DNA of 64,000 nucleotides. It comes from Desulfarculus sp. GTDB lineage: Bacteria > Desulfobacterota > Desulfarculia > Desulfarculales > Desulfarculaceae. The DNA is taken from contig QZKP01000075.1 in NCBI GenBank assembly GCA_003605055.1, positions 26,961 to 90,960 of the forward strand, in the 5' to 3' direction. The notes under the pieces are model-generated. The model was not told where the DNA came from and did no database searches. It saw only the letters and a list, made by a program, of their open reading frames with translations. The first letter of the stretch is position 1, and the number at the start of each line of letters is the position of its first letter. Below are positions 33,609 to 37,383 of the stretch, piece by piece. A program made the translations under genes and the position numbers.

Positions 33609-35087
33609 ATGTCCGCCGCCTGGAGCGATAAAGAGCGCCTGCTGCTCACCGAGATGGCCCTGTTGGTGGACCAGGCCCTGGACCTGCCCCAGGTGCTGGA
33701 CCGGGTGCTGGCCGTGCTGTCCCGGGCCCTGCCCGGCCGTTGGGCGGAGGTGGCCTGGCTGGACCCGGCCCGGGGCCAGTTGCTGCGCCGGGCCCTGGAC
33801 GGCCCGGCCGCGCCGGAGCCGGGGCCGGACCCCGCCGCGGAGCTCTACGCCCGGGTGATGCACGGCGGGCGGCCCTTCCTGGCCGCCGGCCCCCTGTGGG
33901 CCGTGCCCCTGTTTCTGCACGGCAGCGCGGCCGGGGTGCTGGCCGTGGAGGCCCAGGGCCAGGAGGCAGCCCCGGAGCAGCGGCGGGTGCTGGGCGCGGC
34001 CGGGGAGATGCTCAGCCGACTGCTGCACCTGCACCGGCGCATCCAGGCCCGCCTGGCCCCCTTGCAGGGCCCGCCCGGCGAGCCCTCCGGCCAGGAGGCG
34101 GCCGAGGCCAGCCACCTGCTCCTGGAGGGCCAGAGCCAGGCCATGGCCCAGGTGCAGGAGCTCTTGCACAAGGTGGCGCCCAGCGAGGCCTCGGTGCTGC
34201 TGCTGGGTCCCCTGGGCAGCGGCAAGGCCCAGGCCGCCGGGCTCATCCACCGGCTCAGCCCCCGGGCGGACCGGCCCCTGCTGCGCCTGGACTGCGCCTT
34301 TGTCAGCCAGGAGGTCTCGGAGCGCCGCCTGTTCGGCTACGAGAAGGGCGCCTTTTCCGGGGCCACCGAGCCCCGGGCGGGCCTCTTGGAGCGGGCTCAG
34401 GGCGGCTCGCTGTTCATGACCGACATCACCAGCCTGGGGCCGCCCCTGCAGGCCAAGCTGCTGCGCGTGCTGCAGGAGCGCCAGTACGAGCGCCTGGGCG
34501 GCAGCCAGACCCGCAGCTCCCAGGCCCGCATCCTGGCCGCCAGCCGCCAGGACCTGGCCGCGGCCGTGGAGCAGGGGCAGTTCCGCCAGGACCTGTACTA
34601 CCGCCTCAACGTCTTCCCCATCACCCTGCCGCCGCTGGCCCGCCGCCGGGAGGACATACCGCTGTTGGTCCGCTTCTTTCTGGAAAGGGCCGCGGCCGCG
34701 GTCGGCCGCCGCCTGTCCCTGAACCAGCAGGCCCTGGACGTGCTCACCCACTATGCCTGGCCGGGCAACGTGGCCGAACTGGAAAACCTCTGCCAGCGCC
34801 TGGCCCTGCTCACCCAAGGCGATGCGGTGACCCTGGCGGACCTGCCCTCTTTCGTGTTCCAGCGCGAGGCCAAGGAGCCCAGCCAGCGGGCCGGGGCCCT
34901 CTCCCGCCTGGAGGAGATGGAGCGGCGGGCGGTGGTGGCGGCCCTGGAGCGCAACCAATGGGTGCAGTCCCACGCCGCGGCCGAGCTGGGCCTGACCCTG
35001 AGGCAGATCGGCTACCGCATCAAGAAGTTCGGCCTGGAGGGGGCCATTCGCCGCGGCCGGGGGCAGGCCCCCGAGGCCAGAACCTGA
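33609..35087 (+). CDS. GAF-containing sigma-54-activator-like protein with altered motifs
   Basis: The 492-residue protein has a GAF-like N-terminus (about residues 1-160), an AAA+ domain and a NifA-like HTH ([19 protein letters not shown]). The AAA+ motifs are unusual: Walker A reads GPLGSGKA rather than GETGTGKE, GAFTGA reads GAFSGA, and Walker B DE reads TD in GSLFMTDIT. Arg-finger region [18 protein letters not shown] is normal. It may not hydrolyse ATP well and could be an inhibitor or a dedicated regulator. The ATG has only a weak ribosome site and no recognisable promoter. Its targets are unknown. Confidence 0.85.
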
Positions 35088-35150: not shown

Positions 35151-35549
35151 TCAGTCCTCTGGCTGGACCGGCGGGCCCAGCAGGGGCCGCAGCACCTCGC
35201 ACTGCCGGCAGACCTTCATCTTTTCCTGCCAGTCGCGGTACACCACGCCCTCGCAGATGGTGCCGTTGACGAACCAGCACAGGCCGCCCACCTGAAACTC
35301 CCAGGCCGGACAGCGCCGTCTGGTCTCCGGTGGGCAATGCTTGACCTTCCAGCAGGCGGCCAGCCTGCCCTCCCGGTTGCGCTGGCAGGCCAGCAGAAAC
35401 AGCATCTGCCGCTCCACGTGCCCCGGCACCTTGCGCCAGCCCTGCTCATAGCTGTGCACCGCCTTGAGCGAGGTGCCCAGGAGTTGGGCCATCTCGTTCT
35501 GGGTCTTGCTCAACTCGGCGCGCAGGCGCTTGAATTCCTGGCTGTCCAT
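35151..35549 (-). CDS. XRE-type HTH regulator with C-terminal Cys-rich (two-CW) domain
   Basis: The ATG at 35549 gives 132 residues; the ORF track's GTG start at 35588 falls within the -10 box found here, so it cannot be translated. Residues 1-55 form a Cro/CI HTH (QNEMAQLLGTSLKAVHSYEQG). The remainder has CWKVKHCPPETRRRCPAW, CWFVNGTICEG and MKVCRQCEVL, likely metal or iron-sulfur binding. Three copies of its probable operator lie in the divergent intergenic region. It should autorepress and control the HEAT-repeat gene, perhaps in response to metal or redox state. Confidence 0.82.
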   Translation of the reverse strand: MDSQEFKRLRAELSKTQNEMAQLLGTSLKAVHSYEQGWRKVPGHVERQMLFLLACQRNREGRLAACWKVKHCPPETRRRCPAWEFQVGGLCWFVNGTICEGVVYRDWQEKMKVCRQCEVLRPLLGPPVQPED

Positions 35550-35586
35550 GGCCCCGTAACGCTGAGAGTTGACCCCGATACTATTC

Positions 35587-35616
35587 ACTATGCCACAGAG
35601 TGGTATTAGTTTTCAA
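35587..35616 (-). promoter_or_regulatory. Promoter of the XRE gene with operator in its spacer
   Basis: TTGAAA-N18-CATAGT lies on the minus strand, with operator copy 1 (35591-35605, TGCCACAGAGTGGTA) covering the spacer and -10. Repressor binding there would block RNA polymerase, giving negative autoregulation. Confidence 0.7.
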
Positions 35617-35710
35617 TTCCACCCGCGGGCCCTTCCGGGAAAACATCTAAATACCGCTACATCAACGGCTTAGCTTCAAAATGCAGGCCCAATGGGTCAG
35701 GGAAAAAATA

Positions 35711-35725
35711 TACCACAAAAGGGTA
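35711..35725. promoter_or_regulatory. Operator copy 2 (TACCACAAAAGGGTA)
   Basis: It matches TACCAC-N3-GTGGTA with two mismatches in the right arm and lies 33 nt upstream of copy 3. It may help cooperative binding. Confidence 0.6.
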
Positions 35726-35733
35726 TTTTTCAG

Positions 35734-35763
35734 TAGACGACGCATACCACAATGTGGTATAAA
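35734..35763 (+). promoter_or_regulatory. Promoter of the HEAT-repeat gene with perfect operator (copy 3)
   Basis: TAGACG-N18-TATAAA is a plausible sigma-70 promoter. The perfect palindrome ATACCACAATGTGGTAT at 35744-35760 fills the spacer and overlaps the -10. The region 35606-35914 contains no other gene. The leader to the ATG at 35915 is about 145 nt. Confidence 0.65.
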
Positions 35764-35914
35764 ATTCTTATACGAGGGGGCGGCGCAGCCGGGGCCCGGT
35801 CCCTGCCTAGGGCGCCAGAGCGGCGCCGCGCTCCGGCCGATCCGGGTTTCCGGCGCGGCCGCCGGCCGCGAACGCCGGAGCAGTTCCGGCCGGCCGGAGA
35901 AAAGGAGGATTCAC

Positions 35915-36481
35915 ATGAAGGCGGTGAGGGTTTTGTGGTTGCTGGCCCTGGGCCTGGCCCTTTCCCTGGGCGCGGCCCAGGCCAAGGTTTCGCCTCCGCC
36001 CCAGGCGGACGCCGTCACCATCAAGCCTTACGTGCAAAGGTCCCTGCTGGAGGCCTGCCAGGCCGCCGTACGCATGGGCCACCTGAACGAGGTGCCCCAA
36101 CTAGACTTCCAGGCCGTGGTCCAGTTGCTCTATGGCAACTGCCCCGACGTGCGGCCCATCGCAGCCTACTCCCTGGGCGAGATCGGCGACCCGCAGGCCT
36201 ATGGGGCCCTGGTGGGCCAGCTCAAGCACCAGGACGGCCACCTGCGCGCCGCCGCGGCCCGGGCCCTGGGCAAGATCGGCGACCCGCGGGCCGTGCCTTA
36301 CCTGGCCAACCTGGTGCTGGACCAGTCCCAGCCCACCTATGTCCGCTGTGATGCAGCCGCCGCCCTGGGCATGATCGGCGGCCAAGGGGCCGCGGCGCCT
36401 TTGCGCCAGGTGGCCTCCGGCGAGAAGGGTCAACTGCAAAGGGACGCGGCCCGCTCCCTGGCCCGTCTGTCCCCGCTATAG
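35915..36481 (+). CDS. Secreted HEAT-repeat protein
   Basis: ATG 35915 follows AAAGGAGG, giving 188 residues. A signal peptide (VLWLLALGLALSLGAAQAK) is followed by three to four HEAT/PBS-lyase-like repeats, for example AAYSLGEIGDPQAYGALVGQ, AARALGKIGDPRAVPYLANL and AAAALGMIGGQGAAAPLRQV. Such repeats mediate protein binding, so the protein is probably a periplasmic scaffold or adaptor. It is controlled by the divergent XRE regulator via the operators above. No enzymatic motif is visible. Confidence 0.8.
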   Translation: MKAVRVLWLLALGLALSLGAAQAKVSPPPQADAVTIKPYVQRSLLEACQAAVRMGHLNEVPQLDFQAVVQLLYGNCPDVRPIAAYSLGEIGDPQAYGALVGQLKHQDGHLRAAAARALGKIGDPRAVPYLANLVLDQSQPTYVRCDAAAALGMIGGQGAAAPLRQVASGEKGQLQRDAARSLARLSPL

Positions 36482-36629: not shown

Positions 36630-37220
36630 CTACTCCGGCTGACCGTTGAACAGGCGGTAGGACGACAGCACCCGCTGGGCCACCTGCACCAGCCGCTGGT
36701 TGGTGTTGCGGGCGTGCTTCTGCAGGCGCTGCATGGCCTCGGCCTCACTGATCTGCAGGCTGGCCATGAGCACGCTCTTGGCCCGCTCGATCACCTCCCG
36801 TTCGGCCAACTGCTGCTCCAGGGAGGCCTGCTCGGCCAGCAGCCGGCAGGCCCGCTCCTGGCCGGCCCGGGCCAGGTCCAGCACCAGGGCCGCGGCCTGG
36901 GCCGGGAGATCGGCGGTGACCAGGCCCAGGGCGCCTAGGCGCAGGGCCAGGGCAACCAGCTCGGGCTCCATCTGAGCCAGGGCCAGCACCACCCCCACCG
37001 AGGGCGGCGCCAGCTCCGGCTCCCAGGCCTGGCGCTCCGCGGCGCTGAAGCCCCACAGGTCCCAGATCACCAGCAGGCCCTCCTGGGAGGCCGCCGGCAA
37101 CAGGGGGGGCGCCTGGGTCTGCAGCAGGGGATGCTCCAGGACCTGGGCCGCGGCCTCGGCGATGACCGGGGCCAGGGGGGAGCCGCTCTTTTCAAGCAGG
37201 ACAACATGGATGTCGGACAC
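36630..37220 (-). CDS. ANTAR-domain RNA-binding regulator with receiver-like N-terminus
   Basis: GTG 37220 follows AAAGGAGG, giving 196 residues. The N-terminal 120 residues resemble a receiver fold but lack an obvious phosphoacceptor Asp. A coiled-coil linker (ERACRLLAEQASLEQQLAER) leads into the C-terminal ANTAR domain, EREVIERAKSVLMASLQIS through EAEAMQRLQKHARNTNQR. ANTAR proteins bind paired hairpins in leader RNAs to prevent termination. No target leader is evident here, so it may act elsewhere. Confidence 0.8.
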   Translation of the reverse strand: MSDIHVVLLEKSGSPLAPVIAEAAAQVLEHPLLQTQAPPLLPAASQEGLLVIWDLWGFSAAERQAWEPELAPPSVGVVLALAQMEPELVALALRLGALGLVTADLPAQAAALVLDLARAGQERACRLLAEQASLEQQLAEREVIERAKSVLMASLQISEAEAMQRLQKHARNTNQRLVQVAQRVLSSYRLFNGQPE

Positions 37221-37383
37221 GGGCCGCCTCCTTTGGCGGCCGGTGCCTTGCAAACCCCCCTCCAAGGGGGCGAGGGAAAATTGTCCCGTAATAAAGGCTG
37301 GTTGACTTTGGGGGCCTGCTTGCCCTTCAGCCCGGGTTTCGGCAAGAGGCCTGCTGAACTACCGTAGTTGAGCGCAGAAGGGA

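Follow-up and report, generated by a model that had tools for sequence, protein, structure and literature searches.

A two-CW XRE-type regulator of Desulfarculus with putative operators in its own promoter and a possible link to sulfur status in Desulfobacterota

The window analyzed here, a stretch of 64,000 nucleotides from a Desulfarculus genome, harbors a gene for an XRE-type HTH regulator that is transcribed divergently from a gene for a small HEAT-repeat protein. The intergenic region between them extends from the ATG of the regulator gene (35549, minus strand) to that of the HEAT gene (35915) and contains three copies of the palindrome TACCAC-N3-GTGGTA, which we call operators 1 to 3 (Table 1). 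On one side, a gene for a NifA-like sigma-54 enhancer-binding protein (33609–35087), whose N-terminal part gives a marginal GAF match, converges on the regulator gene; on the other side, a gene for an ANTAR-domain protein of the RNA-binding antitermination type (36630–37265) converges on the HEAT gene. With a converging gene at either end, both divergent genes are apparently monocistronic.

Table 1 Features of the regulator/HEAT locus in window coordinates, with promoters and operators as predicted.
Feature	Position	Strand	Description
XRE-type HTH regulator with C-terminal two-CW domain	35154..35549	-	132 aa; ATG 35549, stop codon 35151-35153
Regulator promoter	35587..35616	-	TTGAAA-18-CATAGT, TG before the -10; relatives with the same layout
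Operator 1	35591..35605	.	TGCCACAGAGTGGTA; 1 mismatch to TACCAC-N3-GTGGTA; overlies spacer and -10 in the regulator promoter; kept in relatives
Operator 2	35711..35725	.	TACCACAAAAGGGTA; 2 mismatches; overlaps a possible minus-strand extended -10
Operator 3	35745..35759	.	TACCACAATGTGGTA; 0 mismatches to TACCAC-N3-GTGGTA
HEAT promoter extended -10	35755..35763	+	TGG TATAAA; overlaps right half of operator 3
HEAT leader	35780..35914	+	78.5% GC, AGGAGG immediately ahead of the ATG
Small HEAT-repeat protein with signal sequence	35915..36481	+	188 aa; HEAT_2 2.6e-21, HEAT_PBS 3.1e-14; divergent target

All three copies lie where the original prediction had placed them, and the perfect palindrome that it described at 35744–35760 was borne out by the sequence: operator 3 extends to 17 bp (ATACCACAATGTGGTAT) and represents the only exact TACCAC-N3-GTGGTA in the 3.6-Mb genome. 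When the 365-bp region is shuffled (first order), the expected number of sites with up to two mismatches is 0.006, and none of 20,000 shuffles contained two or more such sites. Measured between centers, operators 2 and 3 are separated by 34 bp, which would permit cooperative contacts.

The relationship of the palindrome to the neighboring gene was analyzed using 80 relatives of the regulator, obtained in one scan of bacterial genomes; they are 55–66% identical and nearly all derive from Desulfobacterota-type MAGs. Absence of the motif from homologous loci, which the original prediction had named as refuting it, is not what we observed. Within 250 nt upstream of the gene, 59/76 distinct upstream regions contain it with at most two mismatches (33 perfect, 7 with one and 19 with two mismatches), compared to about 0.5 expected from shuffles; as a control, the 250-nt stretches on the downstream side of these genes gave 1/72. 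At the level of whole genomes, three of 60 related genomes encode the regulator, and the exact motif was found in those three only (Fisher p = 2.9e-5). Among 297 genomes of the phylum, 23/48 with a full-length regulator contain the exact motif versus 9/249 without it (p = 3e-14), corresponding to 25-fold higher odds in the presence of the regulator, while a reversed control pattern showed no enrichment (8/48 versus 28/249, p = 0.2). Likewise, 50 genomes chosen because they hold a relative yielded about 100 motif matches versus about 10 for the reversed pattern; seven of these genomes have 6–8 sites each, and the regulator gene itself is flanked by 26 of the 99 distinct sites read. Two results count against an operator function: 17/76 relatives show no match within two mismatches, and the exact motif is absent from 25/48 phylum genomes holding the regulator gene. 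In these relatives and genomes, the operators may plausibly have diverged.

Genome comparison thus reveals a candidate operator, its link to the regulator family and, as described below, an arrangement in which it overlaps the promoter. Since the palindromes occur in the promoter of most relatives' regulator genes, they very probably represent binding sites of the neighboring cysteine-rich regulator. That they serve another regulator, or are a by-product of AT-rich promoter composition, is hardly credible. Weak matches are indeed numerous in the window (26 with up to three mismatches versus 12 expected), and sites with two mismatches are not in excess in the own genome (89 versus 110 for a control pattern), but the palindrome tracks this gene across genomes and sits upstream of this very gene.

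The original prediction had located two of the copies within oppositely directed promoters, and this arrangement was recovered: operator 1 lies over spacer and -10 in the regulator-directed promoter (35616–35587, minus strand), and operator 3 overlaps the plus-strand extended -10 that serves the HEAT gene. The HEAT promoter is missing from a simple promoter scan because its -35 is weak; the same overlap of GTGGTA and -10 is also present in relatives. For operator 2, a position over a minus-strand extended -10 (TGG TATATT) is possible, a weaker claim in which the promoter assignment itself is inferred. In the relatives, TTGACA stands just before the operator and the -10 begins at operator base +13 (first T = 0); the palindrome fills the spacer of about 17 bp and its right half, GTGGTA, forms the extended -10. 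A TTGACA-like -35 (at least 5/6 positions) occurs at -12 to -9 of the operator in 33/56 cases, with 0–4 at other positions. In the window, this layout is repeated at operator 1 and partly at operator 3, where the -35 is weak. The exclusion of an upstream GTG start (35588) for the regulator gene held as well: this codon is placed at the -10 hexamer, and the residue that ATG 35549 encodes is the starting point in 62/62 aligned homologs, which disfavors the GTG as a start. On the other side of the region, the GC-rich 135-nt HEAT leader adjoins a promoter region of 46% GC in a window of 66% GC; a search of this leader for an RNA element gave no Rfam match above chance.

Because the operator fills the spacer and -10 in relatives and window alike, occlusion of the promoter is the best reading of this predicted layout. 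A protein with XRE/lambda-repressor fold would bind the 15–17 bp palindrome (A)TACCAC-N3-GTGGTA(T), presumably as a dimer. Once bound, it would mask spacer and -10 in the promoter of its own gene and, on the divergent side, the extended -10 that serves the HEAT gene. The dimer would exclude RNA polymerase, so that the regulator would repress both itself and the HEAT gene. The third site may add cooperative binding. We infer both direct binding and repression rather than activation, and consider it likely that the two divergent genes are repressed, as originally proposed; here, the operator and autorepression are supported by the relatives, whereas regulation of the HEAT gene is drawn from one genome. 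It is improbable that the sites, although real, serve activation of one or both promoters, or activation of one and repression of the other. At some targets in relatives, over 150 nt separate the site from the start codon, and operator 2 lies upstream of the HEAT promoter in a possible activator position; however, a location inside the spacer and over the -10, as seen in the window and in relatives, is typical of a repressor.

The C-terminal part of the regulator, described originally as a Cys-rich tail, was confirmed as such and corresponds to the two-CW domain NF045718 (46.6 bits, curated cutoff 35), against which relatives score 53–54 bits; the model names the domain and gives no function. 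For the N-terminal HTH, Pfam HTH_31 and HTH_3 matched weakly, below gathering. The AlphaFold2 model reached a pLDDT of 89.7 (96–98 over the HTH), and Foldseek assigned the HTH a probability of 1.00 to many XRE structures with E-values above 0.01. The best PDB fold matches, namely C.Kpn2I, C.BclI, C.EcoT38IS, HipB, Aca2, SinR and the 434 repressor, are confined to about the first 50–60 residues. Judged by this model, the HTH has an XRE (lambda-repressor-like) fold. Searches against PDB and viral models gave no match beyond the HTH, and the two-CW domain modelled in isolation was poor (pLDDT 60). An alignment of 62 homologs shows no variation at seven cysteines (C66, C72, C80, C91, C99, C114 and C117) and three tryptophans within the two-CW part, the CW pairs being kept, nor at HTH residues around the recognition helix. 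The domain is also found in histidine kinases with recognizable HisKA and HATPase domains, placed either between HAMP and the kinase core or C-terminally and with similar cysteine spacing; its position after HAMP fits an input domain. In the regulator, the two-CW domain with its seven invariant cysteines may act as the sensor, most likely holding a metal or Fe-S center that would report the intracellular sulfur status (sulfide, cysteine or Fe-S).

As a further line of evidence, we considered the genes adjacent to the relatives. The next gene downstream is metY (O-acetylhomoserine sulfhydrylase) in 27 relatives, and metY lies within 2.5 kb in 34/80; other neighbors include metX, mnmA, cysK, cysE, a ThiI-like gene, nifU, nadA and thi4, and at least one of the listed sulfur genes is nearby in 48/80. 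These counts over 80 relatives leave out two copies of the window's own locus, and the identities of the neighbors were read from sequences and mutual similarity, part of them being run against Pfam or NCBIfam. In a second sample of the phylum, a sulfur gene is nearby in 15/29, the window's genome aside. Of two genomes from the window's own class, one has the regulator as first gene of a metY-metX operon that carries a perfect operator, and the other has it next to mnmA and a thiF/moeB-like gene. The regulator frame preceding this metY-metX pair is broken within the two-CW part, although the operator is perfect; the break could reflect a misassembly or a pseudogene. The nearest tree neighbors of the window protein adjoin MoaD/ThiS-like sulfur-carrier genes, a weakly supported placement in a poorly resolved tree.

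Since relatives under the same operator adjoin genes that fix or pass on sulfide sulfur, a sulfur-status signal is favored. For the family at large, we rate sulfur or Fe-S status as slightly better than an even guess. For the genome studied here the same signal seems somewhat short of an even chance. The window does have the operators; their neighboring target, however, is the HEAT gene, and no sulfur gene adjoins them. The window regulator sits on a long branch, is alone in its genus and lacks a sulfur neighbor, which suggests that its signal may have shifted; it was not found in seven congeners and 12 other family members searched. It also counts against a sulfur signal that sites in Desulfobulbales-type genomes precede cytochromes, acetyl-CoA synthetase and porins, a range wider than sulfur assimilation.

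Seven Desulfobulbales-type genomes have 6–8 exact operators, some of them at the regulator. Their targets comprise small multihaem cytochromes with a DUF2339-like gene, acetyl-CoA synthetase, a sodium/solute symporter with its small subunit, an ExtI-type porin, YcaO-TPR proteins, PsiE and a 381-aa secreted protein.

The original prediction had proposed a metal or redox signal. In this version, the regulator would bind the sites as a metal (zinc/iron) or thiol-redox sensor whose cysteines bind zinc or oxidise, and the sulfur genes would form only one part of a redox or metal regulon. The seven invariant cysteines would fit such sensing, as would Desulfobulbales-type targets such as multihaem cytochromes, a NapC-type cytochrome, an ExtI-type porin and a TonB-receptor-like protein. 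However, the genes kept beside the regulator mostly encode sulfide-consuming or sulfur-transfer enzymes, and no metal-uptake or efflux gene recurs beside the relatives. We consider this alternative rather unlikely, and a general metal or redox stress signal is not the best guess because the neighborhoods of the relatives point to sulfur assimilation and transfer; these neighborhoods still allow a metal or Fe-S cofactor. Extending the sulfur-status reading, we tentatively propose that two-CW is a cytoplasmic sulfur-status sensor (e.g. Fe-S- or persulfide-reactive) shared by repressors and histidine kinases, and that the XRE/TACCAC-N3-GTGGTA branch might be the missing regulator of homocysteine and cysteine synthesis in many Desulfobacterota.

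Regarding the divergent target, HEAT repeats were confirmed by profile match, and the protein, originally suggested to be periplasmic, has a Sec-type signal sequence as judged by eye. Homologs within the genus are about 40% identical and lack this operator nearby, by which we ruled out regulation of the HEAT gene as an ancestral trait, and no HEAT gene was found beside the regulator among relatives elsewhere. The predicted control of the HEAT gene is thus local wiring, possibly lineage-specific, with a target peculiar to this genome, and the HEAT protein is linked to sulfur only by association. Small secreted HEAT-repeat paralogs with this layout are present in multiple copies per genome in seven congeners, reaching six matches in one of them. 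Recent horizontal transfer of the regulator gene was dropped as an explanation, as its GC (0.67) and GC3 (0.92) match the genome: its distribution is patchy, not recent. A wider regulon in this genome was also rejected on the site counts given above; of four off-locus one-mismatch sites, the two examined fall within long open frames. Altogether, we are fairly confident that the best explanation is an autorepressor with a putatively sulfur-status-sensing two-CW domain that also represses the HEAT gene.

These findings bear on how bacteria living in sulfide control its entry into methionine, cysteine and thio-cofactors where neither MetJ nor S-box is present. The analysis supplies a protein family (with a protein of 15 kDa), a DNA word, a promoter layout and a set of target genes, and it gives the two-CW domain, which NCBIfam names without assigning a function, its first functional handle. 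It points to the regulator family as undescribed sulfur-status switches in sulfate-reducing-type bacteria.

Among known systems, the proteobacterial methionine/cysteine regulators MetJ, MetR, SahR and the S-box likewise control metY/metX-type genes (PMC4239095, PMC545781) but belong to other protein families or are riboswitches. In the delta-proteobacteria studied, no MetJ orthologs were found and S-boxes occur in Geobacter and Desulfuromonas only (PMC545781); a survey of methionine regulons contains no XRE regulator (PMC4239095). The LysX box of Desulfovibrio (GTGGTACTnnnnAGTACCAC; regulator family COG1378, PMC545781) has the words GTGGTA and TACCAC in common with the window operator and stems from the same phylum, but its half-sites stand in opposite order with a longer spacer, and its regulator belongs to another HTH family. 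This different arrangement rules out that the window palindrome is the published LysX box. Neither 'two-CW domain' nor the palindrome gave a match in the open-access literature, with subscription papers and RegPrecise outside the scope. Within the two-CW proteins (NF045718), where the window regulator scores above the cutoff, the other carriers found are histidine kinases in which it follows HAMP.

The nearest architectural analogue is the MqsA antitoxin family, which combines an HTH of the same type with a cysteine metal domain, but in reversed order relative to the window regulator. The MqsA operator is an inverted repeat with a short spacer. An identity as MqsA antitoxin was rejected, as the regulator scores below both cutoffs (Pfam 17.2 bits, cutoff 30; TIGR03830 22.7, cutoff 61.8) and has no mqsR-type toxin beside it, the neighbors being the enhancer-binding protein and the HEAT protein; comparison with the MqsA structures 3fmy and 3gn5 gave E-values of 0.02–0.06. 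Autoregulated repressors of the XRE/lambda-repressor-like type, such as restriction-controller C proteins, SinR, HipB and phage repressors, share the HTH fold and carry a short palindrome in their own promoter. An inverted repeat, the putative binding site, is kept in the own promoter of the regulator relatives. Those repressors have no cysteine domain, whereas the window regulator has one; its fold and predicted style of autoregulation are the ones known from XRE repressors.
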